NCBI GenBank assembly: GCA_026874595.1 | Contig: CM049311.1 | Span: 56,752,453-56,816,452, forward strand | DNA: 64,000 nucleotides | Reading direction: 5' to 3' | Source of the DNA: Sipunculus nudus | Taxonomy: Eukaryota; Annelida; Sipuncula; Golfingiida; Sipunculidae | Shown: positions 7,838-56,300 of the stretch, piece after piece | Layout of the letters: each line of letters opens with the position of its first letter | Numbering within the stretch: position 1 is the stretch's first letter | Notes under the pieces: generated by a model | The model's database searches: none | What the model was told of the DNA's origin: nothing | What the model saw: only the letters and a program-made list of their open reading frames with translations | Program-made: the position numbers and the translations under genes

Positions 7838-8017
7838 TCAGCATGACTCCTCCTTTATAGCAGGCATGTCTTGCATGTCTGGCACATTAAGGTCAGGGTT
7901 CATCTTCTGTTTGAGTGCCCATATCAACATTCTTAGTTCTTCTCGTTTCCGCAAAACCGTCTCCTCCAAGAACCAGGCCATCAGGTGTACTGGCATTGTG
8001 TAGTCGACCACAGGATT
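7838..8017 (-). CDS. SENP6/7: SENP6/7-like exon 18 (last coding exon)
   Basis: Follows a good acceptor (GCAATTTCAG) in phase 0 and continues directly from VESFFE with [16 protein letters not shown], the helix after the catalytic Cys. [14 protein letters not shown] matches the KREEIRNIILKLQ tail of the human protein. It ends in TGA at 7838-7840 after about 60 residues, with a short acidic tail ending KEESC. Confidence 0.93.
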   Translation of the reverse strand, partial: NPVVDYTMPVHLMAWFLEETVLRKREELRMLIWALKQKMNPDLNVPDMQDMPAIKEESC

Positions 8018-17000: not shown

Positions 17001-20000
17001 TTTTACATTTATACTAATAACTTATAAAATTTGAAAAATTCAGAACTAATTTTGGGTATTCAATTGAATCTTGATTAAATAATGTTACATCCCTGACAAA
17101 AAATCTCTAGCTTCAGCAATCCCCTTGTTAAGGGAGTAAATATATTTCTTGATTTTTTAGTGCATTATGTTTGGGCCCATAACTTAAAACAATTATGCAA
17201 TACTGACATCGTTCTGGCATGTGCATAGAGAATGAAAAATATGTATATTATTTATGATTAAAGTCAGATCAGTGGTTTTGATATTAGGCAGTCTTGAAGT
17301 GTAACAATGGGTTTTTAATGGAAAAATGAGGTTTTTCATTAATATCTTGAAGGTATTAAGTCCTAGTGACCAAATTCTTGGCATGGTAGGGGATTTTGGA
17401 GACATCTAGATGTATGCCGAATTTAAGGAACTAAGAGCTGAAGCTGGGGAGCTGAGCTCTTGCAAACTGCATAACACTAGCTTGATGTATACAATATGTT
17501 ACATGGTGCTTGAAAACTTAAATAAAAACTACAGTTTTTGATCAACTGGTTTCAAATTTTTGGTGTTAACAGTTGAAAAGGTAACAAAAACATGCTGTGA
17601 AAATTAAATCCACAGTACTTACAGGAAAAAAACGTGCCATGGTCAAATTTGGGCAAAATTTAAGATACCAATTTTTTTTTTATTAATATTTTAAAAAATT
17701 TAAAAGATTTTCATCTAATTTTGGGTATACAATTTAATTTTGATTAATTAAAGTTATATTACTGGAAAAAAGGTCCATAGCTTTAACATGTTTTGTGTTA
17801 AGTGATCAAATATCTTTCCTGATTTTTTACAAAATGCATTATGTTTGGGTCCATAACTTTTTTAAATTATATAATACAGACATATTTTCTTGAATGTACA
17901 TAGGAACTATATAATGGAATATTTATGGTAAATATGAGGAAAAACAGATGAGTGGTTTTGATATTAGGCAGTCCTGAAGTGTGAAAATAGGTTTTTAATG
18001 AAAAATTGAGGTTTTTCCTTAATTTCTCAAAGGTACGAAGTCGAAAAGACCCAGTTTTCGGCTTGGTAGGAGATCTTGGGGACATCTAACATTATGCCGG
18101 ATTTTGGAATCCTAGGTCTTACGGTTTCAAAACGTGCCACATCTACGGACGGACGGACGGATGGACGGACGGACAGACGGATGGAAGACGGACAATGGAC
18201 CACGACTATAGCTCAGATGACTTATAGTCAGCTGAGCTAAAAAAATTGAATAACTAGCCTAATTTTGCAGCTTTTATTTTTAAATTTCAGATTTTAACAG
18301 ATTAAATCCTAATGTATACATGGTGTGAAAATTAAATCCACAGTACTTACAGGAAAAAAACGTGCCATGGCCAAAGTTGGGCAAAATTTAAGGTACCAAT
18401 TTTATATTTTTGCCAATATTTAAAAAAATTTAACAGATTTTGATCTAATTTTTGGTATACAATTAAATTTTGATTAATTAAAGTTGTATTACTGGAAAAA
18501 AGTCCCTACCTTTAACACTTTTGGTCTTAAGTGACCAAATATCTTCCTGATTTTTTTACAAAGTCCATTATGTTTGGGCCAATAACTTTTTTAAATTATA
18601 TAATACTGACTTAATATCTGGCATGTACATAGGAACTATATAGAGGAATATTTATGGTAAATATGAAGAAAACCAGATGAGTGGTTTTGATATTAGGCAG
18701 TCCTGAAGTGTGAAAATAGATTTCTAATAAAAAATTGAGGTTTTTCCTTAATATCTCAAAGGAACGAAGTCCTATTGACCCAATTTTTGGCATGGTAGGA
18801 GATTATGGGGACATCTAACTATATGCCAAAATTCAGATTCGTAGGTCCAACGGTGTCGAAACGTGCCAGTCTTACGGACGGACATCCAGACGGACAGACG
18901 GACGGACGGACGGACGGACAGACGGACGACAGACAATGGACCATGACTATAGCTCAGATGACTTATAGTCAGCTGAGCTAAAAATAGAAAAATATCTGTT
19001 AAAATAAAAAAAAAATACAGGTGGCGCCACCACTTTTTTCAGGAACTGACAAAACTAGTCATGGTCAATATTCAAGGCAAGATTCATGACAATCCATGCA
19101 TTAATTATCAAGATATTGGAGGTTTTGTATTATATTATGATTATTCTGGGGGGTACTTTCAAGCCCCATAGCTCAGAGGATATAGGTCACAGTGACCTAA
19201 TTTTAGGTTTCCAAGGAGATTTTTTATTGACCTCCTTGGATGTTCACTTAGAAGTTTCTAGGACCAGCAGTTACGATTTGTGCCCTGCTAACAGACAGCC
19301 AGATGGCAGACTGACAAAGCGCCATTCCTATACCTCAGTTGACTTACACTAGCTGAGCTAAAAACTGGGGGGGGGGGAAATGTTTTGTTGCATTAGAGAC
19401 TGTTAGAGTCCTTAGTTTTTACATGCTTTTAATTTTTGTAATCTTCAACAGTAATATGCTTGACAGGCTGAGCTAAATGTATATTAAACAACCACAATAC
19501 CATATTTAATGTTCTGTATAAATGCCTAAAATATATGATGTATGAAAGTAGTCATGCACTTGGGGGGGGGGGGGGTAACAGCATAATTTCAAGTCACAAC
19601 CCAACAGAAATGCCTTAGAATCATAAAGAAATCATGATTTTATCAACAGTTCTTCACTGTACATTCCAAGTTTTTGAAGTCACGTTATGCAACAGTACCA
19701 AGGTATCAAGCATATCTATAAATATGAAATGACATGTCAGTAATAGTTCAAACAATTTTTCATAGAAGGTCACAGTGACCTAATTTTTTAGCCATGAAAG
19801 GAATCTCTTTAAAACTGTGCTATCCAATAAAAGTAACAGTTACATCAACTTTCAAATGTTCTCGTGCAAAATGGATTGCATGTACTATGTAAAAATGACA
19901 GTATGACTTTAACTGCTAAAAACTTCATGATAAATCTCACCTCAAAAAAACTCTCTACATATTGCAATACAAAAACGCCACAGTCACTGAAGTTGGTCTG

Positions 20001-23000
20001 CTGTGGACAAATTGGGCTGCCTCCTTTCACTGTGTCCTTGTCAAAGACTCGAGGACCACATGTTTTCTCCTTCTTGATCTTCCATTCCATACTGAGATAC
20101 TCTCTCAATGTCTTAATGACACTGTTTCTCTGTGGGCCCGCTAACGAATCGAATATCAGGATGCATGCCCTGCAACACAATCACACAGGCTAAGTATTTA
20201 ACTAGGTCACAGGGGTCAAGTGGTTTAAACTCAGAGTGAAAGCAAACGAAGGCAAGTTCTCTTTGAGAACTTTATTCTATCAAAATTTTCAAAAAACTTA
20301 AATACTAGAAGTTGTTAAGCTTAAGGACTTATAAGTTATTTTCAGGGATATAGGTTTTGGGAAATCTTGCGTATTTAATGCAGTTGTTACATAACACTTC
20401 AAAAACAAATGACTGGTGAGTGCAAGGTGACTGATGTAGCTCATTAAATGATAAGGATGGAATGAGCATCTGCTGAGTCGATCACCCGGCATATTCAGAA
20501 CTGATGATATATTAAAGAGCCATAGGAAGTTGCACATAGGCATGTATATGTGTGAAAATCACTCATGAAAAACCAATGTGTCTGTCAGCGTATATATGCA
20601 TGTATGTCTATAGGTGAAAATTGCAATAGGAGTGATTATCATGCACAGGGTTTGTATGGTCAAAGGTATTCCAGACCACATAAGTGTTGTGTTTTTGTGT
20701 GTCTGTGTGTGTGTGTTTTTAGGGGGGGGGGGGGTTTGGAGGAAGGTTCACTAGTTTTTGTTCACTACATCCTGCAAACCTCAATGAAGTAACAAGTATA
20801 CACAATTTGCACACAAGTTTTTAGAAATTATAAATTCATATAAACACATGGGATTTGAACTTCAGTTGGAAAACATTTCACTGCAAAACAAAGAGCCCCC
20901 AGCAGATTTGGTAAAAGCAGCTTTAAGGTTTTAAAACAAGGGACTCATGGGTCACGGTGCTGAGCTGAAATATATGATCACAAAATATTATTACAAAGAG
21001 GGGTTAGACTCAAGGTTGACATATAGTCAGCTGAGCTAAAAAGCTTGGGTTCTTAGACAACAAGGCAGTTTTTCAGACACCTGTGTGAAATGACAAATAT
21101 TTGTTCACCTTTTGTTTTAAATTATAGAAAGTCTGATATGATCAGGGGACAAAATGATTATAACAGGAGTGTTTTGCTAATCAGCTAAAAGCACATAAAT
21201 ATAAAAAAAAATATGAAATTTTATTATTTTATTTAATTAAAAAAAGTCTGAGTTGTTCATTTTTATGGGTGGGTGGTTGGGTGTGAGGGCGATGCTCACG
21301 TTCATGAAACAGCAGCTTGTCTAAATATGTTGTAAAAATACTGGTGTATTGAAGACATCACAGCTTTATGTGAAACTATTTGTTCTGGTATGAGGACCTG
21401 ATGCACTTACTGTTTGACTCCATTCACCAGCTCTGTCTCCGGCTGTGACTCTGCCGTGCTCTGTCCAGCACTGGATCCTGCAGGACTGGATGGACGGGTG
21501 CTGCTAGAGTCCTGTGATATGCTGTTCTGTCCATCTTCTTGGGTATCCATGGGTTCCTCAGTAGATTCCTAGAACCAACAAAAATGTTCAATCTATGGTC
21601 AAGACAACTTTGAGAACTTTGCAGCGCAGGAAAAATTAGCCATCCTACCATCTTTGAAGTTAAACATTAGGGAAGACAAGAAAAAGGTTTATTACTGATG
21701 TCCTCGCAGACCACTAACAGATGACTGTAATGAACACCTCTCTAGTCTTCAGCTCATATCAATGACTGTCAATAAGTCAAATTAACACAAGATGTTCACA
21801 GAAAGAGAGGGATGCAACTGAGCATTATCTGGTTGCAATATCTGGTACTACGGCTTTGTGTGGCTTTTTTCTTAACAAAAGCATACGGCAGCGCTGATTG
21901 CTCTCTTCACATTTTAAGCTGATGTGACTTGATATGTAAAGGTCAATGTACCTAGATAACCCATTTCCTTACACTGGAAATATGGGTACTCTGAATTAAA
22001 TTTTTACTTCTCTTCTGCTCTGAGAAGGCAGAATGTTTGGCATACCTGGAATTATATGGTATTATTTGAGCAGGTTGGTTTTTCTTCACCAATTGGTGAG
22101 ATGTTCACTAAATTCATTGCTCATAATGGTGACTTTCAGTGGAACAGCTAAAGGAAACATGATATTATTTGGCGCAGATCAGAAATTCATCACTAGCTGG
22201 TAAGATTTTAACTATTTCTTCAATCACAATCTATTGGTAAACCACAGTGGCAGTAGTTTGGACATGTTTGAACAAGCTAACCCCACCAAATTTCCTCTGA
22301 CCCTGACAGAACTTTATGTACCCTACCCAGTCCCTCCCATTGTTTTTTATATTTTTTAAAATTTATTTCCTTTACATGGATTGTAGAATAGTTATAATAA
22401 CTACTGATAGGTGCTCTACATGACACTGACGGTGCTGTTTGGTAGTGTGTAGAGGTGAAGGAAACCAGAGGACCAGGAGAAAACCAACAACCTTCAACAG
22501 GAAGCTGCAACCCACTCACAAATCCCCCCCCCCCCCCCTCAATCAAATCTGGCTGAAAGTGGAGAGAGTGGAGACGGTACCCTCAGGACTGTCCAAGCCC
22601 CTGTTTAGTTTCATCATCCCTGCATTATGTACTACACTCTCATAATGGTGTCATCACTATAACAAAACACTCTCATAATGGTGTCATCACTATAACAAAA
22701 CACTCTCATAATGGTGTCATCACTATAACAAAACACTCTCATAATGGTGTCATCACTAAAACAAAACAATCTTGCCATTCTGAATTACAACTAGATCCTT
22801 GCTTCTACCTGTGAGCTGTGTGCGCTGCCTGGTGCTTCTTGCATCCCTGTCCCCAGCCCTGTCTGTCCACCACCTTGTAGTGGCAGCTCCCGTCTACAGT
22901 TTTGGTCTGCTGGCTGGCTTGTTTCATCCTGCTGGGCTGTTCCATTGCTGTCTGCTGCTGGCGGTGGGGTTGCAGGGTTCACTCTGCTGATACGGTACTG

Positions 23001-26000
23001 AACTTGGACCGGACGCTCCAAGGCGGGGAAGCAGATGATGGCCAGGTACCAGTGAGAGCTGTAATTAAAACAAAAGTCACTGACATGATGGCCAGGTACC
23101 AGTGAGAGCAATAAATGAAATAAAGTCAAGTTTTGTCTTAACATCCTTTTTAGCCAGAAGCTTCATAAACACAGATGCCTATCCTCATGTTCCTACCATC
23201 ATTTACTGATATAAAAAAAAAAGAAATTGTTTAAGGAAAGAAAGTTACATATAAAAATATAATGTAATATCATAAGAAGGGGCCAAGGTTCATAATAGTT
23301 AAAGATAAAAATTACCAAGGGTATTTAAATGGTACCATGTGACCTCTTGACCTCACATTAAATGAGTCAATGGTGCCATGTGAACTAGTAACCTTACCTC
23401 TCATTAATTGGCACAATGATGTAATCCTTGGCAAACAGATCCACGTGCCTGGTCCATGTTTTTACCCGGTTATGTCTTCTTTCTGGCAGCCTTAACAAAG
23501 ATATTATTGTCAAATCAATGACTGTAAAAGTTTACATAATGAATGATTTTCAAGGTTGGTATTATCAATGTGTCAATGTTTGTATTCTCAATGTTTTGGA
23601 TTGTCAATGTTTGCATTATCAGTGTTAGGACTGTCAATGTTTGTATTGTCAATTTTTGGATTGTCAATGTTAAAATACCTGAATTTTGTCAGGAATAAAA
23701 GCTGACTTGTCATCTGCACGAGTATAAATAGTAGGTGCAGTATTTGTGATCAGGAATTAAACATTTAGCAGCATCCTAGTGAGCACTCCAAGGTTTATCC
23801 TCATAAAAGTATCTTAAATTTTAAATCTTTTTTCTTCTCAAGAACAGAACTTATCAAAGACAAAATCTTATTCATTTATGGCCAATAAGTGAACAACAAT
23901 AAAGGTTATGACCTTGGCCAAGGGCCTTATGACAAAGAGTACTTTTTTTAATATAATTTTTTTTTTAAGGTAGCTGCCTCCACTTTTTAATGCTAGCTGT
24001 ACTAAGTATGAACATCTGCAGAGTGGTATTCATTTTATATCCTGGTGTTAACCAAGCCCAGTAACAGCTATGAACCCTGAGTGTGTAATCTGCCTCATTT
24101 CTGGGTCATACTTCCAAGAAAACCCTGAATGGTGCACCCTTTTTGAGAGTGAAACACGGCACGGCTTTCCCATTGAGCCTGGAGAACGCTCACCTTAGAT
24201 GGGGGCTGACCGTGAAAAATTTCACCACCTCGGCTGAGATTCAAACTCATGATCTCCTAGCTCTGAATCCTGTGCTTGTATTATATTGAAAGTACTTACG
24301 GTAACTTGCTCTCCTCTGGGTTTTGCATATTTCTGGGAGGCTTCTGGGTAAGTCGCCGATAAAAGAAGGAGCTAAATATGTGTGTTTTTTGTCTGTCCTC
24401 CTCAGAGAGCTTATTCAAGTATATATATCTGAAAAATAAAATATGCAGAAACGTAAAAAAAAATCCAAACACACAATGAATGTCATTTACCTTCAGTCTC
24501 TGGTCCCCATATACTTCATCTTGCAATAATGAACAACAAAAGTGTACTTCTGTACTCATTGGTTTGACAGTGAACAAGCAAGTATACCTGTGAACTGAAC
24601 AGTTGTGTACTTAAGGTCCTATAGTAAACAACAAAGTAAACCTATGTACTTATCAGTTGTTTACTTAATGCTCCTACAGTGAACAACAGAGTATACCTGT
24701 CTACTTATTAGTTTGTGTGCTTAAAGGTCCAGTAATGAACAACAAGAGTATACCTGTTCACAGATATATAAAACCTTTCATTGAGTCCTTACCCCTAATA
24801 TATTTTAGCGGTTTATGAATCACCCAAATGACTTCTTCACAAATAATCAGTATTTTAAACCTGTCAAAATAATACATTTTAGGTGTGATGATTTTAAGAA
24901 GTAGCAGAGAGCTTGGCAGTTTTTTTTTCTTACTTGAGATAAAAATCAATGATGACATCATTGAGGAATTCTCCTTCATTTAAACAGAAGAAATCCTCTG
25001 TGGTTACAGCGATGCCTCCCTTCCCCGGTGGATATGTAAACAACCTGTAACAGATCATGTGACAAAATGTGAACTTTGTGGACTAAACTAGAAGTCACAC
25101 AAAAAAATATATTTCCTACCCCCTATGGGCCCCCCATCTCCAAATCTGAGTAAATATTATACACATTTCAAAAGTAACGTAAATAACGTAGAGATATGGG
25201 CTTTAAGATCAAGGTCATAATTTTTCGCACTTGTCCAAAAAAAGTTCTTGTTATTTAATTCGAGGAAAAATCTGCAGTTAGTGGGGGGGGGGGGGGGGGA
25301 ACTAATCCTAGATTTCTGCAGATTTGTGCCTAAGGCCTTACAATGTCACATCAAGAGAACAATTTAAATGAATCTGTCACTACCCATGTCGAGGCAAAAG
25401 GACGTATCAAGATTTAAACTGCATATATTACCAAAACTTTTAATGATGCTTCATTCAAAAATATCTTTGTGCAATGAGAAGGCTAATATGATGTGATGTA
25501 AATTTCAAATACACAGGTATTATCAAAGTGCACATCAAAGGTCTCATAAATATGTAACAGCTTAAATAAATCACACAGAAGATGTTTTGATCCAAAAATA
25601 ATTGACACTATTGAGAACAGTTTAGGCCAATGTTCTGTACTTTACAACAAGAGGTAGAAACATAGGCTTAAGTAAGTATTCCACAAGAGCAGTAATCAGG
25701 ACAATCATGTTCTGAAAAGAGCCTGGGAAGGCAGTTTCATTCATTTTCACTGTTCTACAAGACTGACAGGAATGACAGCTTAGGCCAGAGATTTACAAAA
25801 CTGATTGGAAAGAGAGCTTAGGCCAGACATTTACAAGACTGATAGGAAAGAGAGCTTAGGCCAGAGATTTACAAAACTGATAGGAAAGAGAGCTTAGGCC
25901 AGAGATTTACAAAACTGATAGGAAAGAGAGCTTAGGCCAGAGATTTACAAAACTGATAGGAAAGAGAGCTTAGGCCAGAGATTGACAAAACTGAAAGGAA

Positions 26001-29000
26001 AGAGAGCTTAGGCCAATGTTCTATAAGACTGATAGAAAAGAGAGCTTAGGCCAGTGTTCAACAAGACTGATAGGAACCAGAGCTTTGGCCAGTGTTCTAC
26101 AAGATTGATGAAAAGAGAGCTCAGGCCAGACATTTACAAGACTGATAGGAAAGAGAGCTTAGGCCAGTGATTTGCAAAACTTAAAGGAAAGAGAGCTTAG
26201 GCCAATGTTCTACAAGACTGATAGAAAAGAGAGCTTAGGCCAGTGTTCAACAAGGCTGATAGGAATGAGAGCTTAGGCCAGTGTTCAACAAGACTGATAG
26301 GAACGAGAGCTTAGGCCAGTAATTACAAGACTGATAGGAAAGAGAGCCTAGGCCAGTGTTCTACAAGATTGATAGGAAAGACAGCTTAGGCCAGTGTTCT
26401 ACAAGAGTGGCAGGGAAAAGAGCTTAGGCCAGTCTTCTACATTAAAAGAGTGGTAAGGAAAAGAGCTTAGCCAATGTTATACAAGAGAGGCACTGGTCTG
26501 TACAGTACATACTTAATTATTTCTCCTTTGAAAGTCCTTGGAAGGGGAGATGGTGATCGACTTTTATCCTCATCTTCTTCATCTTCGTCGTGGTACTGGG
26601 CCCTCACTGCTGCGGCTGCTGCAGCATAAGCTGATATAGCCTGTGCTGCATTGGCTGGGAGTTGTGGTGGTGGGGCATGCTGTACTAGAACCCCGGCAAG
26701 CAGCAACAAGCGATGCAGCTCATTCTCATCGATAACAAACAGGAACGGGTGTGGCACAGTGCCCTTGTACATCTTGCTGATTGAGGTAAATATGTGTGTT
26801 AGTGGATGTTCTGCTTCTGGTGATACATGGGGCTCCAGGACAAACACGATACGTTTGTGCTGCTCCTCTGAAATGAAAATACATTTAGCTTTAATACATA
26901 CTAAAAAACAGGTACCATTGAAGAGGAAGGGTATATTGCTGCATATTGTGTGGCCCCAGACCCGTAATATAGGGAACTTCCAAGACCTCTACCTTAAAGT
27001 AGCAACCTCTGTTGCTTGATACAGAACCAATTATTTATGTCATTGTGGTAATGGGCTGAGGTGAAGGTCAGCAGTAGTGAGGTGGAGAGTGGTGTGATGT
27101 TGTGCTAGAGACCTGTGAATTGATGCTGCTGTGAATTCAAATGTGTGAAAGTGGAAGGACCAAATTGGTGTGCATTCTGTGAGTTATGGCATCTGACTGA
27201 TGCTGAAAACTGAACTGGCCACTTGTCATGGCCCATTTCTGCGGGTTTTGTAGGACAAACAAACAGACAGGACAATTTATGTATTATATAGATACTGTAA
27301 CACAAAGTATCACATGCAAGTTCAATCTGTGTAAGTTTGATCCTGCCTCAGGAGATTCAATGGCCTTAGTAACAACTCAGTTATATTACTCTGAAATATA
27401 ACCATTAAATACCAAATAATGAAACTTAAATCTTCTCAAAATTTAAACAAATCCATTAAAACTATGTCAAGTGTAGCTGAAAAAAACCTCCTTTTCCTGT
27501 GTGGCCCTTAGGGATGGAATCTAATGGTTCCTGGATTAGAAATTCCCTAAGGAGAGGAACAATAGTACAATCCATCAAAATTCATCTTAGGATGAAAAAA
27601 AGTAGCTCTACTTAAGTTATACACCAAAAGAAAGGCCAAATCTTTGCTGTTTACTTTTTTACTTTTTTATCTACTTGCATGTTTTCATGCATGCTATTAA
27701 GCAATGTGTATTCATGTGATACTAACAACAAGGATTTCTTTGTTAAACATGTCTGTAAATACATCAAAAGACTGCCACAAATGAATTACTTCCAGACACT
27801 CAAGGCACAGATCTGTATGACAGCTCCCTCTGGTGTCAGACCTGAGCATCTGACCAGGACCATCAACACACACAGATTTAAATCTTACTGACCTTGCCAA
27901 TGCAATCAAACCATATTTGGAGAGAAATAAACATTAAGCCCATGAAAATGAGCCTTGAATTATAAATGAGCCTTGAAAACTTGTTCTAACAAATTTAATC
28001 TGTAACACAAATTGATGATAAAGGCAAATAACTGACTCAGCAATCACCTTTTATGTTAGCATGCAGTCCCTGCTTCTATAAATAAATAAATGATCCACTC
28101 ACAGAAACCTTTACAATAAACTTATTACATTCTAACAGGCTAACAGACCTTAACACAATGCTCATCTGCCACTTACAACTTAATTGCATCAGTACTGAAC
28201 CAGTTAAATATCCAAAGTAATTTAATTTCAAAGTCAATATTCTAATGGTACCTTTAGTTGATGGGTTATTGTATATCATCATTCTGATGTTACCTTTAGT
28301 TGAGGGTCACTGTATATCAACATTCTGATGTTACCTTTAGTTGATGGGTTACTGTATATCATCATTCTGATGTTACCTTTAGTTGATGGGTTACTGTATA
28401 TCAACATTCTGATGTTACCTTTAGTTGATGGGTTACTGTATATCAACATTCTGATGTTACCTTTAGTTGATGGGTTACTGTATATCATCATTCTGATGTT
28501 ACCTTTAGTTGAGGGTCACTGTATATCAACATTCTGATGTTACCTTTAGTTGATGGGTTACTGTATATCAACATTCTGATGTTACCTTTAGTTGATGGGT
28601 TACTGTATATCATCATTCTGATGTTACCTTTAGTTGATGGGTTACTGTATATCATCATTCTGATGTTACCTTTAGTTGATGGATTATTGTATATCATCAT
28701 TCTGATGTTACCTTTAGTTGATGGGTTATTGTATATCATCATTCTGATGTTACCTTTAGTTGATGGATTATTGTATATCATCATTCTGATGTTACCTTTA
28801 GTTGATGGGTTACTGTATATCATCATTCTGATGTTACCTTTAGTTGATGGATTATTGTATATCATCATTCTGATGTTACCTTTAGTTGATGGGTTACTGT
28901 ATATCATCATTCTGATGTTACCTTTAGTTGATGGGTTATTGTATATCATCATTCTGATGTTACCTTTTGTTGATGGGTTATTGTATATCATCATTCTGAT

Positions 29001-32000
29001 GTAACCTTTTGTTGATGGATTATTGTATATCATCATTCTGATGTTACCTTTAGTTGATGGGTTATTGTATATCATCATTCTGATGTTACCTTTAGTTGAT
29101 GGGTTATTGTATATCATCATTCTGATGTTACCTTTAGTTGATGGGTTATTGTATATCATCATTCTGATGTTACCTTTAGTTGATGGGTTATTGTATATCA
29201 TCATTCTGATGTTACCTTTAGTTGATGGGTTACTGTATATCATCATTCTGATGTTACCTTTAGTTGATGGGTTACTGTATATCATCATTCTGATGTTACC
29301 TTTAGTTGATGGGTTATTGTATATCATCATTCTGATGTTACCTTTAGTTGATGGGTTATTGTATATCATCATTCTGATGTTACCTTTAGTTGATGGGTTA
29401 CTGTATATCATCATTCTGATGTTACCTTTAGTTGATGGGTTACTGTATATCATCATTCTGATGTTACCTTTAGTTGATGGGTTATTGTATATCATCATTC
29501 TGATGTTACCTTTAGTTGATGGGTTACTGTATATCAACATTCTGATGTTACCTTTAGTTGATGGGTTACTGTATATCAACATTCTGATGTTACCTTTAGT
29601 TGATGGGTTACTGTATATCATCATTCTGATGTTACCTTTTGTTGATGGGTTACTGTATATCATCATTCTGATGTTACCTTTAGTTGAGGGTCACTGTATA
29701 TCATCATTCTGATGTTACCTTTAGTTGATGGGTTACTGTATATCATCATTCTGATGTTACCTTTTGTTGATGGGTTATTGTATATCATCATTCTGATGTT
29801 ACCTTTAGTTGATGGGTTATTGTATATCATCATTCTGATGTTACCTTTTGTTGATGGGTTATTGTATATCATCATTCTGATGTTACCTTTAGTTGATCGG
29901 TTACTGTATATCATCATTCTGATGTTACCTTTAGTTGAGGGTCACTGTATATCATCATTCTGATGTTACCTTTAGTTGATGGGTTACTGTATATCATCAT
30001 TCTGATGTTACCTTTAGTTGAGGGTCACTGTATATCAACATTCTGATGTTACCTTTAGTTGATGGGTTACTGTATATCATCATTCTGATGTTACCTTTAG
30101 TTGATGGGTTACTGTATATCATCATTCTGATGTTACCTTTAGTTGATGGGTTACTGTATATCAACATTCTGATGTTACCTTTAGTTGATGGGTTACTGTA
30201 TATCATCATTCTGATGTTACCTTTAGTTGATGGGTTACTGTATATCATCATTCTGATGTTACCTTTAGTTGATGGGTTACTGTATATCATCATTCTGATG
30301 TTACCTTTAGTTGATGGGTTACTGTATATCAACATTCTGATGTTACCTTTAGTTGATGGGTTACTGTATATCATCATTCTGATGTTACCTTTTGTTGATG
30401 GGTTATTGTATATCATCATTCTGATGTTACCTTTAGTTGATGGGTTACTGTATATCAACATTCTGATGATACCTTTAGTTGATGGGTTACTGTATATCAT
30501 TATTCTGATGTTACCTTTAGTTGATGGATTGAAGTAGGGCCCTGACTCCTCTGACATCTTGAAGGCCTTTCTCATGCGTTCACCACAACTCAATGAGGAA
30601 TGTATTATAATGGAAGGTGTATCCCCTCGTAAGCAAGCTAAAACACGGACCATCTCTTCCCCATGGACTTGTTCCTTCATGTTGAATGAAGCATCTGTAA
30701 ATAAAATATACAATGCTTAGAGGACCTCCATTCCCACTCATTACCAAACACATTTTAAAAGAATTCACAAGAGGTTCCCATGGTTAATTTTCAAGTATCC
30801 AACAAAAACATTTAATATGTCACTTGATCATGTTTATATACACCAAAATTTTTTCAAGTCCTTGAGAGTATTGAAGCCTTTGTTTAATTCATATATGGTT
30901 TTTATACCCTATTTTTAAGTTGTATTATTCTAAAAGTAACTGTGAAATGACCTTACTGCAATACAAAAAGAGTCAATTCCAAATATCAAAGCATGATCTA
31001 TTTCAAGAACTTCATGACACATTAACTCAACTGCATTAAATTTCATACACTCTTGATCAAGACAGAATTTTATGCTGTATGTATGCAGAACTAACGGTAT
31101 ATTGCACAATAGAACATAAACATGTATAGTAATTTATGCATCTAATAAATGGTGAAGCTTACGTATATATATTTTAAAACTCAAATGTGGTTAACCACTA
31201 CATTTGATCATGCATAACAAATACAAAGCCATTAACTGCAGGATAAAAACTGAGAAGCCACAGTAGACGGTAAGTTAGTAGACTTACATGACACGCTGAA
31301 CGTGATGCCCTTGGTGTTGACCACAAGCTGACCGATGGCCCTCAGTGCCAATGATCCAATATGGACCTGTCTTAGTGGGAGTACCACGCTGCCCTCCTCG
31401 GGCTCCTCATCCACCTTGGGTGGCTCCTTAACACCCGGGACTTTTCCATCCTAAAACAATCAGTCAACAATCATTATTCCACATTTACATAATTATATCA
31501 TGGTTATTAATAAAGATATTAGATTAGGTTATAATAGCAGATTTATTATTTATAAAGATCTGCACTTCCACATGTCAAGGCTCTAAATTTACAATATACT
31601 CTATGTCTCTATCAGACAGTGGGGTCTGCAAGGCAGAAAATTTACCACATGCTAAAAGACATTCATTGACCTTATATTGTTTTTGTGTCAAAACCCTGTC
31701 TTCAATATGTTTGAAAGAGTACTGCATTACATGGCTTTGTACATATTTTCTTGTTTTGTAATGTCTATATTAACAATGAGATGCTAACATGGAAACATCT
31801 ATATGGCAACATGAAAATCCCAACTAGCAAGATCAGACATAAAATAATTACCAGATAAGGAGGGAAAGCGTAATCAAATTTTGTGCAGCTTCCCTGAACC
31901 TCCTGTTAAAGTCTAGTAATGTGACACTTATTTCAAAGAAAACTGTAGGACACTGATTTTGGACTGGTCACTGCTACAACTCTCTCTCATAGCATCATGG

Positions 32001-38000: not shown

Positions 38001-41000
38001 AAATGCTAACAAAAACATGCTGTGAAAATTAAATCCACAGTACTTACAGGAAAAAAAGGTGCCATGGTCAAAGTTGGGCAAAATTTAAGGTACCAATTTT
38101 TTATTTTTGTTAATATTTAAAAAAATTTAAAAGATTTTGATATAATTTTGGGTATACAATTTAATTATGATTAATTAAAGTTATATTACTGGAAAAAAAG
38201 TCCATAGCTTTAACATGTTTTGTGTTAAGTGATCAAATATCTTTCCTGATTTTTCACAAAATGCATTATGTTTGGGCCCACAACTTTTTTAAATTATATA
38301 ATACAGACATAATTTCTGGCATGTACATAGGAACTATATAGGGGAATATTCATGGTAAATATGAGGAATAACATATGAGTAGTTTTGATATTAGGCAGTC
38401 CTGAAGTGTGAAAATAGGTTTTTAATCAAATATTGAGGTTTTTCCTTAATTTCTCAAAGGAACGAAGTCGCAAAGACCCAGTTTTCGGTTTGGTAGGAGA
38501 TCTTTGGGACATCTAACATTATGCCGAATTTTGGACTCCTAGGTCTTACGGTTTCAAAACGTGCCACATCGAATGATGGACGGACGGACTACAGACAATG
38601 GACCACGACTATAGCTCAGATGACTTATAGTCAGCTGAGCTAATAAAATTAATTATAAAACTGTGGTTGAAAAGATGAAGCGCAGCACAAACCTGATGAT
38701 TGGTGCACTAGATTAACAATTGAAGATCACAGACAGTAACAGATCAGTGACAAATTACAGGGATTTTAATGTAACTGGTGACTTCTGGGTAATAGTATCA
38801 ATACTGATTAAGAAATCCTATAAGTGGACTTTAACACATACAATACACTGTTCTCCTCTACAAAAGGGTGCAAATTACATTTAAGTAATAAAATGACAAT
38901 TTGTATGAACACACAGGGACTTAAGTACATGGTTCAACTTACTATGTCTATCTGTGGTTTTCTTTCTGTATCATTGTCTACAGTTGTACTCCCATCATGA
39001 CTACTGGGCTGACCAAGGTCTGGAAAAATGAATGTAAGAGATTACAAATTAAATAGGTTATCAACAGCATTATATAATTATGCTAAAATACCATCAGTCT
39101 GTGCCAGGTGTTCATATTCACATCATCCAACAATGGTGAGATCGTCCAAAAGTTACTATGGCATTATTGGCTTTAAAAAGTTATCAATACATAAATGGTT
39201 TTACACAGTAATCATTACATATATGGTTTTAAACAGTTATCATTATATATATGGTTTTAAACAGTAATCATTACATATATGGTTTTAAACAGTAATCATT
39301 ACATATATGGTTTTAAACAGTTACCTCTAAATTAATAGTTTACAACATTTACATTACATAAATGGTTTACAACAGTTACCATTACATGAATAATTTTCAA
39401 CACATATCATTACATGTTTGTTTTGGTTACAATTACATTACATGCTTTCCAAAAATCACCATTACACTGATGGTTTTTAAAAATTACCATTACAGCACTG
39501 CCTTTCAACAGTTACCAATTAATGAATGGTTAACAAATAACACTACATAAATGATTTCAACCATAGCCATTAAATCACAATTAAATCTCAATAATATAAC
39601 ATCATTCATTACTTCAAAAAATTCATATGTCACCTGCTGCAGTTTCCTGTTTCAATTATGATGATCCCATCTAAATTATTTTTTATATTCCATTTACTTA
39701 CAGGGTGTGATGCACAGAACTACAGCATGCATGGCAATGTTTTATTGAGCAGTTGTAGGAATTAAGTGGAGACAAGATCATATAAACACAAATACATATA
39801 TATTGAGTGTATTGAGTTGTTTTCAATGGCCATAACTTAATTTCATTACTTAATATTTGTTTTTGGTATTGTTCTTTTCATTTGTATAAAAATGTAAAAT
39901 TTCAGTGGATGGCTACTGGTGGAGTACACCTGACCTCTTGACCTACCCGGTGGACAGTCAGGGCCGCTGCTGGGAGCCTCCTCATGGATGGGCCTCCTGT
40001 GGAAGAAAAAAACATTCATAAATTAATATTCAATAATACAATAACAGGCATAATTTTGAGATTCCATACAGTAAATATCACTTTATTCATCAAGGGTGCA
40101 CTAACAAAGTACACCATATCCTTATCTATACAGCTGTCTTACTCTCCGCCCTGCAGCATATACATGTATTGAGCACCAATTTTAGTTCACTCTCAACCAC
40201 ATACAAGTTTTTTTGTAAGGTATAATTGATTAACTCTCAACCACACGTTTCTTCAACAGATATTTCTGGTTTACTCTCAACCACACACCAGTTTCTTCAA
40301 CAGGTATTTCTGGTTAACTCTCGACCACATACCAGTTTCTTCATCAGGTATTTCTAGTTAACTCTTGACCACATACCAGTTTCTTAATCAGGTATTTCTA
40401 GATAACTCTCAACCACATACCAGTTTCTTCATAGGATATTTCTAGTCAACTCTCAACCACATTCCAGTTTTTTTTCATAAAGTATTTCTAGTTAACTCTT
40501 AACCACATACTAGTTCACCCTCAACCACATACAAGTTTTTTTGTAAGGTATTTCTGATTAACTCTCAACCACATGTTTCTTCAACAGATATTTCTGGTTT
40601 ACTCTCAACCACACACCAGTTTCTTCAACAGGTATTTCTGGTTAACTCTCGACCACATACCAGTTTCTTCATCAGGTATTTCTAGTTAACTCTTGACCAC
40701 ATACCAGTTTCTTAATCAGGTATTTCTAGATAACTCTCAACCACATACCAGTTTCTTCATAGGATATTTCTTGTCAACTCTCAACCACATTCCAGTTTTT
40801 TTTTCATAAAGTATTTCTAGTTAACTCTTAACCACATACCAGTTTTTGCATCAGGTATTTCTTTTAACTCTTGACCACATACCAGTTTTTTCATAAGGTA
40901 TTTCTAAGTCAACTCTCAACCACATACCAGTTTGTTCATAAAGTATTTCTAGTTAACTCTCTGCCACATACCAGTTTTTTCATCAAACATTTTTTGTAAA

Positions 41001-44000
41001 CTCTCAGCCAACCATTACTTGTTCATGAAGCCCACCTTGGTAACTGCCAACTTCACATCATATTTTTTTCTCCAGGAATTTATAGTTAAGCCTCAACAAC
41101 ACTTTCCTTTTCTATATGGCATTTTCATATATGGTGACTGACTCTCAATCACATATCACTGATATCACATATCATTTATATTAATTTTTCATTGGGCATC
41201 TCTGATACACTCAACCTCATCACTATTTCATCAGGAGTGTCTGGTTAACCCTACTAGCAAGGTTTAATGTCAAATACTGGAAGATGAACTTAATTACTAC
41301 TAGCAGAATAGGCATAATTTTGACAGTTGACCTGTGATATCCAGGTTTTGGAGTGTACATTAAATGGCAACCTCCATAAGTGGTTTTGAGAAACTTGAAG
41401 AAATAGGTCTGTCAGATCATACTGGGTAAAATACAGCTGTCAGATCAGATTCTAAATCCAGAATAGGTCAGTATTTAAAGGTTGTATCTGAATTTTATGT
41501 GTATGCATAACAAGTCTAGATGATTTCATGAAGTAATAAATATTTTAATCATTCTCAGACAGTCTTTGCAAGTGAAATATAGGAACGCAGGCTGTTCCTG
41601 GCTTCCTACTTGTCTTTGTTGTTTTATGACTTGGAATGACTGAAATTAAGAGATTTTGAATCTTTGTATCCCAGACTTCCGGATATTCATCTTTAGAAAT
41701 TCTCATGAGGGAACCATTAAACATGGTAGTGATTCACAAATGTATGGAAGGAGGAGAAAAACAACTGGCTGACACAGCAAGAGACCAATTTATGCAGGCA
41801 TGCATGATTCAGCCAGACATTCATAAGTGTGGACAAAACTTACTACCCCCACTATGTAAGCTTATATATACCTTCAGAGCTCATATAATTATTGATTAAA
41901 TGAGGTTACAATTGTTGTGTACCATACTTTACACCAAATTCAAGAAAATATGCAAAATTTGACGTTTTTCAATGATTGAAAGACCCTGTGTAACCATCCC
42001 CTACATTTTGCTCCGACTGATCAATAGTCTGAGGCAGATGGTTCAATTATACATTCAATCAACAGCTCAAGCAAACTGTGCCAAATTCAGCAAATTTTTG
42101 TCTTTTCATGTTCCTGCAACATTATTAACAAGGCATAATTAATATAATAAATATCCAGATGATCGGCAATTAAAAACATTATGCTCAGTGCACACACAGC
42201 CATGATGAATGAATGGGATGGCCAGGCTGGACGATAGGGGGCAGTGGCTGTTTTCCTGCAGTTTATCAGGCAGGCAGTCATTTACTACATTCCACACTTG
42301 AGAGTATCAGTATTAGTGATACCCGCATTGAAGAATCAAACTGGTGAATGTTCTTTCCGCTGGTTTGACATGAATGCCAAATGCACTGCATTAGATATGG
42401 TATACTACTAGTTCATATGGTTAACTCCCACATCAATTCTTTGTATTTTAATGTTTTATATGACTTTGAACAGTCTGGATATCCTATTTACCTTTTGAGC
42501 TCCTGAATTGCAAATTTGGAATGAGACCATGGTCTACTTTTGAGCATCCCTGGACTTTCACTGGACTGACCAGCCACACTCGTGCTGGAGCCAACAGCAG
42601 CAGGGTTGTCTGGAGACCTGTCCATACAACGGTAGAGCACGTCAGAAAGTCTATACGCTTACACTACTAATGTCAGACATTCACACTAACTCACACATAT
42701 ATATGAGAAACTTGCCCAATAGCTTTGTTGTTTCTAACATAAAGTGAGTACAGTATATAGCAATTTTTGCCTCTCTGACATAAGCGTCTGCCAAGATGTA
42801 AGGGCAGTTAAACTTGTATATAGAACAAGGGATGGGTCTTGACCTTCAGCTGAATTTGTCTAGAAGGATAGGTTTATGAGCTTTTTCAAATTATGGGTCC
42901 TATGATCAGTTTGAAGCCAACCTGTCTACCCAAAGTGGAGTTATCATCTGGAAACTAGTATGTGGACAGTTGGCCCGTGACCATGACTTTTGACCTTGTG
43001 AACCAAAAATCAATAAGTTTCTTCCACTATTGGCAGGAGAGCAATATCTGGAAGGTGGAAGGTTTGGGATGAAAGTTTGGATTAAAATACATCTACAACC
43101 TTTTTAAAGAAGTGGGTCTTGTGACCTTGACCTTTGACCTAATGACTCCAATTTCAAAAGGGTCCTTACATTACTGTGGGTTTTATATAAGTCAAGCTTG
43201 AAACCAATATGTCAGTCCAAACTGGAGTTATCATCCAGAAATAAAAATGCGGACAGATGAGCCCTGTGATGAGCTATATGTGCAAGATTGGAGGTATGGA
43301 AGAAAAGTTTGGCTTAAAATGCATAAGTGGGTCCTGTGACCTTGACCTTTGACCTCATGACCCTAAAATCAGTTCTTGCGTTAGAGGTGGGCCATATATA
43401 GTTCAAATTTAAAATGCATATGTCAATCCAAACTTGAGTTATCATCAGGAAACAAATTTGATGGACACACAGAAAGAAGAACAGACAGATGGACAGGGTG
43501 TTTAATATAAGGCTTCTGCTTATTTAAGCGGGGCCCTTATAAAAAATACAAGGTTTCAGGACACAGATAAAACCATAGTTGCAAATTTGAAAGTATCAAT
43601 ATCATTTGGCAGTCTCAAAATAAAGGGAAATAAAGCATCAAAAATAGAAAAAATACAACTGGAGCCACCAGTCTTCTGGAACTAAAAAAACAAATCATAA
43701 TCAATAAAAACACCAGATCTGAGAAGCCTGGATTAAACCATGGCTGAGATAATTGCTGTCATTTGACGGTCTCAAAAACAGAAATATAATCATAAAAATT
43801 AGAAAAAATACAGTTGGCACCACCAGTTTTCAGGAGCTGACAAAACTAGTCATGGTCAATATTCAAGGCAAGATTAATGGCAATCCATGCATTAAATATC
43901 AAGATACTGGAGGTTTAGTGTCAAATTTTAAATTATTATGGAGGGTACTTACAAAGCCCTATAGCTCGGAGGATATAGGTTGCACTGACCTAATTTAAGG

Positions 44001-50322: not shown

Positions 50323-53300
50323 TGAACTGGAGGTATCTGACAGCACTTGTTATCATACATGGGATATGTTATCAATTAGTTTTGGCTTAAATTTACAGGG
50401 TGCAATACTTTTTTTAACACACAAGAAATAAGTTGCACTGACACAGTTTCCAAGTTCAATAATAGATTCTACAACTCTGTCTGGGCGTTAAATTGGAACC
50501 CTCAAGCTTTAGTGGTTACTAAATATGCCCGACTCACAGCTGGCTAAATGCAACGGGCTGAAACCAATAATTTTGACTCATATGAGATAATGACTTTTCT
50601 GTCAAATGAGCTAAAAAGGAACAGCAGTAAAGATCTTGATAACAAAAGCTAAAAAAATGTTATGTGGTTTAAGCAAATGCTTAAGAACTATAAGAAATAC
50701 AAACACTAGTGCTCACCTCTTAACATGCATGATAAAAAGGCTGCAATTATGACAAAGAATTGATGAAAACAATGAAATTGTAGGTCCCAGCTCAATAGCA
50801 AAACAAGGGACCCATGGGTCGCGTCGCTCAGCTGAATTTTGGAAAATATTAGTAATTGCAAAATTTTTATTTCTTATGGTTTTTCCATGTATATTACCAT
50901 TTGAAAAGCTAAGAGAAAGTGGCCCAGCTTAAATGAAACTCTGTAAATTATAGAATAATGGTTATGAGCTAAAGCATATGGACTGTGTAATAAATGAAAC
51001 CTTTGGCCTGAAACCATTTAGTGATGCAATTCCTGAACATTTTTCCTTTAAAAATAATCAAAATTGTCCAAGTCTCAACAAAAGAATTTTTTTAACATTA
51101 AAATTATAAGCTTTGTCTTGTATATGAGTCCTGTGTATCGAAGCGGTGGGTCAGGGAGGGGTCTCTGTTGTTAAGTGAGTAAATATATATCCTGCTTTTT
51201 TACAAGGTGCATTTTGTTTGAGCCTTTAACTTCAACAAATTATGCAATACTGACCTAAATTTTGGTATGTACATAGGAAATGTATGGAAGAATATGAATA
51301 TTTACAAATACATCTAACATTATGCCAATTTTTGGATTACCAGGTAAACAAAAGTAGGGTCATGATGCTAGAAAATACAAATACATTAAGGCTTCTAAAA
51401 ACCTTCAATAGCTAGACTATTTTTTAAGCTTATACTTTCAAAAATATAAAATTCTTCAGTTTAAATCCATATGTTAACTGGCTGTGAAAATTAAATCAAA
51501 TGTACTTATAAGAAAAAAACGTGCCATAATCAAATTTAGGCAAAATTTAAGGTCCCTATTTTTTATTTTTGCTAATATTTTAAACAAGTGACCCATGGGT
51601 CATGACGCTCAGCTGACTGGGAAGAGATTCGCAAAAGGAAATTTTATCATCAGAATGGTAGTATATACCCATTCAACTGAAGCATCAAACAGATTAACCA
51701 ACAGGCAAAGATTTAGTCTGTATTTATATATCTCAAAAATAGAGAAAAAATGTGTAAACTAGAATACGGGTAGCAGACAATTGACTATATGTATCCGCCA
51801 AAATCAGAGTGGAAACGGGTGAAGTGAGGCATGGATTGAGTGGCAAGGTGAAATAGAGTAAGGTATGTTGCATATTACCATGGACCTCTGCAGCCTAAAT
51901 GTGTATGTAGGTTGTGCCACCTACCACAAATCCAGAAAACTGTCCAAGTTGTATACATATGCAAAATTTTAGGCAGAAAAGTCAAACCACTACATGTATA
52001 TGAGTGATTTTAGCCCACGGCAGACAAACAGAAAGACACTGTGCAAAAATGGTTGCAGGTGGCCCCTCCAGTTTTGTGTATGATAAAGACCTATGTGAGA
52101 TCTATACACATGCAAAATTTTGGCCCAATCGTTCAAACGGTTCCCGAGATATGAGCTTGGATGTCTGCAGCATAAACTAGAATGTAGGTGGCGCCACCTG
52201 TCACAAAATCAAGAAAGCTATCCAGGATGTATAGAACTGCAAAATTTTAGGCAGATGTCAAACCACTGCCGAGATATGAGTGACATTATCCCACGGCAGA
52301 CAAACAGACAGATGCTGTGCAAAAATGGTTGCAGGTGGCGCCACCAGTTTTTAGTATGATAAAGAGCTATGTGAGATCTATACACATGCAAAATTTTGGC
52401 CCAATCGGTCAAACGGTTCCCGAGATATGAGCTTGGATGTGATCAGCTTGAACATGAATGTAGGTGGTGCCATCTGTCATAAAATCAAGAAAGCTATCCT
52501 GGATGTATACACATTCCGAATTTCAGGTGAATTAGTCTATTCACTGCAGAGATATGAGTGATTTTAACTCAAGGCAGATGAACAGATGGACACTGTGCAA
52601 ACATGGTAACAGGTGGAGCCACCATTTTTTGTGTATGTTATAGAGCTATCCAAGGGCTACATTTGTATAAATTTTATTTCCTGATTGGTCAAACGGTTCC
52701 CGAGACATGAGCTTGGATGTGATCAGCGTGAACGTGAATGTAGGTGGAGCCACCTGTCATAAAATCAAGAAAGCTATCCAGGATGTATACGCATGACAAA
52801 TTTCAGGTGAATTAGTCAATTCACTGCAGAGATATGAGTGATTTTAACCCAAGGCACATGAACAGATTGACACTGTGCAAACATGGTTACAGGTGGCGCC
52901 ACCATTTTTTGTGTATGTTATAAAGCAATCCAAGGGCTACATTTGTATAAATTTTATTTCCTGATTGATCAAACTGTTCCCGAGATATGAGGGTTTATGT
53001 GTGGAAACAGACACACAAATGGACGCTGGATAGAGAGGATAGGTCAGAGATCAACGCAAATTAGTTAGGCACTAGTTCACATGTGACCCGATAATTGGTG
53101 TAAGTTTCGGAAAAATTGGTCCATTATTCTCAGAGGAGCTCTCTGGAAACGAACCTGGCAACGGCGGAGGAACCTGGGCAAAAACAAAGTATCCGCATAA
53201 CTTTGTTTTGGCGGATACAAAAATACAGGTGGCTCCAGCAGTCTGCATAAACTAATAAAAACACTTAATGGTCAATATCCATGCAAAGAATCATGATGAT

Positions 53301-56300
53301 CTCTGCATTAGTTGTTCAGATACTTCAGCTTTTGTATCAAATTGTCCATTATTCTGAGGGATACTTCAGACTCCTATAGCTTGAAGGATATGGGTAACAG
53401 AGACCTAATTTCAAGTTTCCACAAGCACTTTTCATGGGCCTCCTTGCATGACAAGAATGAAGAATCTAGGTCCAGTTGTTGCAATTTGTACACTGTTGAC
53501 AGATAACCACATCTTTAAAGGTCCCAAAAAAAGAGACAAAAATTGTAAAAATTTGAATAAAATAGGTGTCGCACCCAGTCTGCAGAAACTGATGGAACAG
53601 CTCATGATCAATATGTATGCCGAAAATCATGACCATCAGTGTTGTAGTTATTGAGATACTGCAGTTTTTGTATCAAATTTTCCATTATTTTGGGGGGGTA
53701 TTTTGGAGCCATACAGCTTGAAGAATATGGGTAACAGAGACCTAATTTCAGGTTTCGATGGAGACTTTTCATAGGTCTCCCTGTGTGTCAAGAATGAAGA
53801 TTCTAGGTCCAGTTTTTATGATTTGTGCCCTGTTAACAGATGTTCATATCTTTAAAGGTCTCAAAAATAGAGAAAAAATTCGTAAAAAAAACCCGAACAA
53901 ATACAGGTTGTGCCACCAGTCTGCAAAAACTGATGAAACACTCCATGATCAATATCCATGCAAACAATTATGGTGATCCCTGCATTAGCTGTTCAGATAC
54001 TTCAGCTTTTGTATCAAATTTTCCATTATTCTGAGCTGTACTTTGGAGTGCCATAGCTCAAAGGATATGGGTAACAGAGACCTAATTTCAGGTTTCCATG
54101 GAGACTTATCATGGTTCTCCATGTGTGTCAATTATGAAGATTCTAGGTCCAGTCGTTACGATTTGTACCCTGTTGACAGATAACTACATCCTTAAAGGTC
54201 TCAAAAATAGAGAAAAAAAATTGTGAAAATTTGAAAAAATACAGGTGGCTCCACCAGTCTGCAGGAACTGATGGAACACCTCTTGATCAATATGTATGCC
54301 AAAAATCATGACCATCAGTGTTGTAGTTATTAAGATGTTGCAGTTTGTTTTCATCAAATTTTCCATTATTCTTGGGGGTTATTGGGAGCCCCCCACAGCT
54401 CAAAGGATATGGGTAACAGAGACCTTATTTCAGGTTTCCATGGAGACTTTTCATGGACCTCTCAGTGTGTCAATAATGAAGATTCTAGGTCCAGTCTTTA
54501 TGATTTGTGCCCTGTTAACAGCTGTTCACATTTTTAAAGGTCTCAAAAATAGACAAAACAATTTGTAAAAATTAAAAAAATACAGGTGGTGCCACCAGTC
54601 TGCAGAAACTGATGAAACATCTCATGATCAATAGGGATGCCAAAAAATCATGACCATCAGTGATCTAGTTAATGAGATATTGAAGTTTTTGTATGAAATT
54701 TTTTACTATTCTTGGGGGTACTTTTGGGCTTCATAGCTTGAAGGATATGGGTTACAGAGACCTAATTTCTGGTTTCCATGGAGACTTTTCATAGGTCTCT
54801 CAGTGTGTTGAGAATGAAGATTCTAGGTCCAGTAGTTACAATTTGTGCCACGTTAACAGATGACAGCATCCTTAAAGGTCTCAAGAATAGAGGAAAAATC
54901 GTAAAAAATCTAACAATACAGATGGCGCCACCAGTCTGCAGGAACTGATGGAACATCTCATGATCAATATGTATGCCAAAAATCATGACCATCAGTGATG
55001 TAGTAATTGAGATATTGAAGTTTTTGTATGAAATTTTACACTACTCTGGGGGGTACTATAGGGCCCCATAGCTCGAAGGATATGGGTAACAGAGACCTAA
55101 TTTCTGGTTTCCAAGGAGAACATCATGGACCTCTCAGTGTGACCAGAATTAAGATTCTAGATCCAGTCTTTATGATTTGTGCCTTGTTAACAGATGTTCA
55201 CGTTTTTAAAGGTCTCAAAAATAGACAAAACAATTCGTAAAAATTTGAAAAATACAGGTGGTGCCACCAGTCTGCAGAAACTGATGAAACATCTCATGAT
55301 CAATAAGTATGGCGAAAATCATGACCATCAGTGATGTAGTTAATGAGATATTGAAGTTTTTGTATGAAATTTTTTACTATTCTGGGGGGGGGGGGGGGGG
55401 TGGTACTTTGGGGCTCTATAGCTTGAAGGATATGGGTAACAGAGACCTAATTTCTGGTTTCCATGAAGACTTTTTATAGGTCTCTTAGTGTGTTGAAAAA
55501 TGAAGATCCTAGGTCCAGTCGTTATGATTTGTGCCACTTAACAGATGACAGCATCCTTAAAGGTCTCAAAAATAGAGGAAAAAATCGTTAAAAATCTAAC
55601 AATACAGGTGGTGCCACCAGTCTGCAGGAATTGATGGAACATCTCATGATCAATAAGTATGCCAAAAAATCTGACCATCAGTGATGTAGTTATTTAGATA
55701 TTGAAGTTTTTGTATGAAATATTTTACTATTCTGGGGGGTCCTTTGGGGCCCCATAGCTCAAAGGATATGGGTAACGGAGACTTAATTTCTGGGTTCCAA
55801 GGAGATTTTTCATGGACCTCTCAGTGTGTCAAGAATTAAGATTCTAGGTCCAGTCTTTACCATTTGTGCCTTGTTAACAGATGTTCACATTTTTAAAGGT
55901 CTCAAAAATAGAGAAAAATACAGTAAAAAATCGAAAAATACAGGTGGCACCACCTGTCTGCAGGAAGTGATGGAACATCTCATGATCACAGAGATGTGCT
56001 CAGAATAATTTGAGTGCCGGGCGGGCGGGCCGTGCACGTGAAATGGGGGGTGGGGGGAGGGGATCACGGGATATCTAACGTTTAACTTTCATTTTTTATA
56101 GACGTGATATTTCAGCTGCATGAATAAATCATTAGTAATACTAAAAAGTATTATTAATTTCCAATATGCCGACAGCAATGCCGCCACTGAGAGCAAATTT
56201 GATTGTAAAAATTAAAACACTGTGGTAAAACCTGATACCAAACATCATATTCCACTTTTCTACGGCAGTTTGGCCTCATTAGGAACTGTGACCTTACAAA

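Follow-up and report, generated by a model that had tools for sequence, protein, structure and literature searches.

Amplification of the exon 10 donor

A minisatellite that starts where an exon ends and carries the donor (5' splice site) of this exon in each of its units is present in a 64,000-nucleotide (nt) stretch of the Sipunculus nudus genome (NCBI GenBank assembly GCA_026874595.1, contig CM049311.1, positions 56,752,453 to 56,816,452 of the forward strand; this whole stretch is referred to as the window, and its own numbering is used throughout). The host gene lies on the minus strand and, judged by homology, encodes a SENP6/7-like SUMO protease; the array follows its exon 10 (exon numbers are provisional and are those of an earlier note made from the sequence, here called the original prediction). 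The locus raises the question whether the copied donors take part in splicing, or whether they are passengers of a repeat that happened to arise at an exon boundary. We identified the array as a real amplification of the donor of exon 10 itself. As to its role, we consider it fairly probable that it is a neutral local minisatellite derived from a duplication of the boundary, that the original donor is mainly used with minor longer in-frame forms, and that the bulk of the array is passenger intronic DNA.

The donor boundary of exon 10 reads AAG|GTAACATC on the minus strand (CTAAAG|GTAACATC with wider context). It is the first of 55 successive AG|GT junctions on this strand, consisting of the junction of exon 10 (30514, donor 0) and 54 copies, the last of which (donor 54) lies at 28251. 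Neighboring junctions are 42 bp apart in 49 of the 54 intervals and 41 bp apart in the remaining five, and Tandem Repeats Finder describes the array as 28239-30527 with a period of 42, 54.6 copies and 96% matches. Intron 10 measures 3647 nt, of which the array makes up 2264. Between positions -3 and +8, 52 of the 55 junctions are identical and read AAG|GTAACATC. The three deviant donors are GTATCA in donor 1 (30472; AAG|GTATCATC at 30465-30475), GTTACA (29005) and GTACCA (28251), the latter belonging to the last junction, GTACCATT (28251-28252), after which the intron sequence is unique. The claim of the original prediction that the array copies the gene's own 5' splice site about 54 times is confirmed by this junction list.

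When the unit is cut at -22/+20 relative to the junction, it consists of 22 nt of exon and 20 nt of intron. The end of exon 10 matches the unit consensus at 18 of 22 positions and the similarity ends at -23, with only 1 of the 20 positions further upstream matching, while among the 61,659 other 22-mers on the minus strand of the window the best match is 15 of 22. At the protein level the YFNPSTK of exon 10 corresponds to YSNPSTK in the unit. The satellite was therefore born at the exon 10/intron 10 boundary, with the last 22 nt of exon 10 and the first 20 nt of intron 10 (30495-30536) as founding segment. The boundary is thus part of the unit as had been proposed, and the exonic part of the unit is 22 nt instead of the 13 nt given earlier. 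A search of the whole 1.43-Gb assembly with a 35-nt piece of the unit, allowing up to three mismatches, returned at least 54 places (repeat listings from the assembly are lower bounds), all of them inside the array. An origin of the satellite elsewhere was rejected, as no other site in the assembly was found within three mismatches.

Ten types can be told apart among the 53 inner units; they differ by 3.8% on average and are interspersed along the array. The 41-bp units, at junctions 12, 14, 20, 48, and 53, all belong to one variant type. Interspersed types together with a single scattered 41-bp type point to unequal exchange. The array was founded by a single tandem duplication of the 42-bp segment straddling the boundary, after which unequal exchange may have spread and homogenized the units, the donor being copied along with every duplication. 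A processed copy recording a spliced form was not seen: when the exon 10-11 protein was searched against the assembly (E ≤ 10), the hits were the two exons themselves and a single weak match on C3 (E 2.81).

To place the array among other tandem repeats, arrays with a period of 10-100 and three or more copies were searched for the donor motif MAGGTRA. It was present in none of the 18 arrays from a 200-kb sample of the genome (20 pieces of 10 kb each), too few for an estimate of rarity, and in one of the nine arrays of the window. The reversed motif was found in 0 of 18 and 0 of 9 arrays, respectively. Minisatellites are abundant in the window, and introns of the gene contain several of them, so that an array taking in a boundary by chance is not unexpected.

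The reading frame through the array

Exon 10 (30515-30694, minus strand) is 180 nt long, starts at the acceptor tttatttacag|ATG, ends with YFNPSTK plus a G (phase 1) at the donor CTAAAG|gtaacatc and is in frame with exons 9 and 11. The array donors share one acceptor, that of exon 11 (26513-26867), the start phase of which matches exon 10 and which joins it in an open frame. Donors 0-11 (30052-30514) are 42 bp apart and would give exons that range from 180 to 642 nt, are 0 mod 3 in every case and contain no stop. The first 41-bp unit (30012-30052) shifts the frame. Donor 12 (30011) lies before the stop and would give an exon of 683 nt that is out of phase, and the exons of donors 13-54 would contain the stop at 29997-29999, which ends the open reading frame (ORF) of exon 10 within the array (ORF 29997-30716, 239 amino acids). 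The original prediction had described a period of 14 codons, twelve donors in one phase, and a frame that stays open through them and stops at 29997 after a 41-bp unit; each of these points stands.

The unit is open in just one of the three frames, and that frame is the frame of exon 10. With a period that is a multiple of three, the chance of this is near one in three and the match is no surprise. The chance of finding no 41-bp unit among the first 11 intervals is 0.30. Both values fail to support selection for an open frame. The eight base variants seen in the unit comprise six amino acid changes, two silent changes and no stops, compared with 23 silent changes and six stops among all 126 possible changes, and the unit peptide shows no sign of constraint.

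Long open stretches also occur in the array on the opposite (plus) strand (28304-30537), with hydrophobic 14-residue repeats of up to 235 amino acids; this openness again follows from a period divisible by three. The repeat ORF matched Pox_A3L, DUF4811, and others in Pfam; no stretch passes by itself, and these matches were rejected as repeat artefacts. A single-sequence fold of exon 10 plus repeats gave one strand per repeat at low confidence (mean predicted local distance difference test score 50.1) and was not used as evidence.

Strength and context of the copied donors

Donors were scored with a frequency model based on human data, and pairing with the U1 end was calculated; neither was trained on this species. 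Nine other donors of the gene, partly chosen for their donor-like look, served for comparison. The common form of the array donor scores 7.33, a value equalled or exceeded by 1.6% of the 3538 GTs outside the array on the minus strand and lower than that of seven of the nine other donors. Its U1 pairing of -6.5 kcal/mol ranks below six of the nine, and among the ten gene donors examined the array donor alone lacks a G at +5. The deviant copies score 4.35 (donor 1), 3.08 (the GTTACA copy) and 4.18 (the last copy), and a second GT present in every unit (ACA|GTAACC) reaches 1.78. Scoring all donors, as had been proposed earlier, thus places the copies above background, and also reveals that they are mediocre among the donors of the gene and that donor 1 is damaged.

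Folding gave a predicted openness of 0.46 for donor 0, a mean of 0.52 for donors 1-11 and 0.50 for donors 12-54. The idea that RNA structure hides the donors was rejected, as the folding energies are ordinary (z -0.01 and -0.82). Selection on the donor is likewise not supported: 11 of the 42 stretches of the unit of equal length (nine columns) vary as little as the donor stretch or less. Splicing from one unit to another inside the array would mimic the products of a shorter array, and its AG context appears poor (T 0.18 and pyrimidine 0.53, against 0.41-0.65 and 0.59-0.76 in eight acceptors of the gene).

Comparison with known boundary repeats

The original prediction knew of no described minisatellite built from a splice donor on this scale. 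This is incorrect, as the human IFI6 gene (Turri, Cuin and Porter, 1995) precedes it. According to a later paper, two downstream repeat units of IFI6 (G1P3, 6-16) act as donors, resulting in three mRNAs (PMC4526556); the 1995 study is cited in PMC3618361, PMC2572611, PMC4526556, and PMC2915984. As far as these sources describe IFI6, the Sipunculus array resembles it in starting at the 3' end of an exon, in including the boundary (22 nt of exon and 20 nt of intron per unit) and in having a donor-like site in every unit (55 of 55 AG|GT). It differs in its 42-bp unit and about 54 copies, in the gene and its lineage, which is another at the level of the phylum, and in its position near a protease domain, and the use of its extra donors is a prediction. 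The IFI6 array is said to have a 12-nt unit in 26 copies and to give in-frame isoforms; longer forms would be in frame here for donors 0-11 as well, while donors 12-54 fail in this respect. In anatomy, the array is a larger and independent example of the IFI6 plan; in function, it may resemble IFI6.

Other tandem repeats at or near splice sites have been described as well. In the fission yeast genes SPOG_01682 and SOCG_00815, a 24-bp segment containing AGGT is tandemly duplicated and introns extend across four and two duplicates (PMC4974935). These duplications, like those of vertebrate ATP2A1 and the model of Rogers (1989), share tandem AG|GT repeats with the present array. In those cases the duplicate is exonic and yields a new intron, whereas here an old boundary is straddled and 20 of the 42 nt are intronic. 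Genes in human segmental duplications contain minisatellites at exon-intron boundaries, on average four copies of a 30-bp unit, with spliced and retained forms (PMC2812944). They resemble the present array in their location, and the accessible parts describe them without reference to a donor array. VNTR6-1 in intron 6 of TERT, with a unit of 38 bp and 24-66.5 copies, is comparable in unit and copy number; it lies inside an intron and alters splicing through G-quadruplexes (PMC11830802), not via copied donors, whereas runs of G in the unit described here do not exceed two on the RNA strand, as read from its consensus. A donor array of such copy number was not noticed in our literature search, which left most subscription papers outside its reach.

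Expected donor usage and alternative explanations

According to the explanation that we prefer, a neutral array with mainly the original donor in use, the pre-mRNA would carry 55 near-identical, mediocre donors ahead of one acceptor, each of which could in principle pair with U1. Near-equal donors would compete, with the exon-proximal donor predominating and the next sites used to a minor extent; donor 0 is expected to predominate because its exon, at 180 nt, is the shortest. Minor forms up to donor 11 would be in frame and add multiples of 14 residues just before the protease domain. As donor 1 is damaged, the addition of 28 residues (donor 2) is predicted to be more frequent than the addition of 14. 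Use of donors from 12 on would lead to a frameshift or a stop and to removal by decay, and most of the array would be a passenger of the intron that has no selected function.

Several observations weigh against this explanation. Two GTs downstream in intron 10, with scores of 8.23 (28047) and 8.36 (27892), exceed the 7.33 of the array, indicating that score alone is no predictor of use. Neither the donor model nor the U1 end is specific to this species, and the comparison donors were partly hand-picked. Donor 0 is no more open than donors 1-11, so that folding gives the first donor no advantage. Finally, conservation of the donor in 52 of 55 copies could reflect selection below the power of the test.

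Two alternatives fare best among the others, and each of them we regard as unlikely. In the first, donor 0 is the only site used and exon definition silences all other copies, which would fit the 180-nt exon and its lengthening with each later donor. Donors 2-11 share the core and a similar predicted openness with donor 0, however, and IFI6 does employ downstream repeats. In the second, the copies form a redundant-donor buffer or U1 landing array that holds U1 near the exon and thereby safeguards splicing or suppresses premature polyadenylation. The missing G at +5, which among ten gene donors affects only that of exon 10, and the core kept in 52 of 55 copies are in line with such a role, as is the lack of AATAAA and ATTAAA within the array. 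The first such signal occurs just past it (28226), and a poly(A) site within the array was rejected on the same grounds. Against a buffer, the weakness is built into the unit, so that the copies reproduce it rather than repair it, splicing at most copies (12-54) would ruin the frame, and the lack of a particular 6-nt signal is expected in a homogeneous array.

A true isoform ladder, in which donors 0-11 are used in graded amounts to add 0 to 11 repeats of 14 residues, tuned by allele length and adaptive, is rather improbable in our estimation. Twelve in-phase donors, a matching acceptor phase, and an open frame are what it would predict, and the three mRNAs described for IFI6 follow such a plan. 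Yet the open frame, the spacing and the donor conservation are all at chance level, and the six amino acid changes against two silent ones give no sign of peptide constraint. Moreover, the damage to donor 1 (GTATCA, 4.35 against 7.33) makes the first step of the ladder the weakest. Smaller still is the chance we give to a donor rheostat, in which the twelve in-frame donors (eleven with the full core) would give proteases with 0-11 repeats, the other 43 would divert transcripts to decay, and array length would shift the balance between individuals. That the array is a tolerated burden, its decoys competing for U1 and causing intron retention or decay-bound transcripts, is very improbable. In its favor, 43 of the 55 donors (12-54) would yield a frameshift or a stop, PMC3618361 refers to Turri et al. 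(1995) on minisatellites "interfering with gene splicing", and an intronic repeat in TERT alters splicing (PMC11830802). Against it, the frame around the array is intact and the gene has thus not decayed in the part read.

Structure of the host gene and other repeats in the window

The SENP6/7-like gene, read on the minus strand, begins at about 46 kb of the window and extends to 7.8 kb. Its exons 9 (31288-31450), 10, 11, 12 (24934-25044), 13 (24300-24428), and 14 (23398-23490), together with the initial 190 nt of exon 15, form a single open frame of 407 codons. In a search against the PDB, this frame matched a chain of human SENP7 (7.6e-50, residues 229-366), followed by the next distinct proteins at 1.3e-13 or weaker. 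The predicted protease domain starts in exon 12, and the SENP7 match is part of the evidence for exons 12, 13, and 14. The predicted protein is closer to SENP6/7 than to SENP1-3 and 5; no SENP6 chain was among the matches listed, and the assignment is to SENP6/7 jointly. Pfam assigns PF02902 (Peptidase_C48, the Ulp1/C48 catalytic domain) to the frame with an E-value of 2.1e-21, covering profile positions 1-105 of 217, and a match to the second part of the domain lies in the 19941-20169 region. The exon read there from its ORF (19941-20169) presumably contains the catalytic cysteine, as judged by the C48 motif. A probable last exon, also an ORF reading, is at 7838-8017. The first ~25 nt of exon 15 (GCTCTCACTGGTACCTGGCCATCAT) are repeated about 50 nt upstream (23084-23109 and 23035-23060), a small tandem duplication across the acceptor side.

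Other tandem repeats were observed in and around the gene. Intron 11 contains a 38-bp minisatellite of 18 copies (25751-26441) with a unit that is acceptor-like on the gene strand (CTCTCTTTCCTATCAG); the real acceptor of exon 12 (25045) is outside it. A 54-bp repeat of 3.4 copies in intron 12 (24569-24757) has donor-like ACAG|GTATAC sites on the gene strand, none of them at an exon end. A 44-bp minisatellite (40183-41010; 7.6 and 11.4 copies) has a higher-order period of 328 bp and other minisatellites nearby, and two long tandem arrays with units of ~276-280 and 336 bp occupy 51905-55988. In the random sample of the same genome, one stretch (L036, 1-6780) contains a 32-bp array of 212 copies.

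Implications for splice-site choice

The array is a natural experiment in splice-site choice, offering the spliceosome many equal donors on a single RNA. Core and local context are nearly constant, acceptor distance and exon length vary stepwise by 42 nt, and the three damaged copies serve as internal controls. Use of more than one donor would carry the IFI6 plan beyond a single human gene, to a SUMO protease in an invertebrate-like genome. Use of the first donor alone would show directly how firmly exon definition commits splicing to that site.

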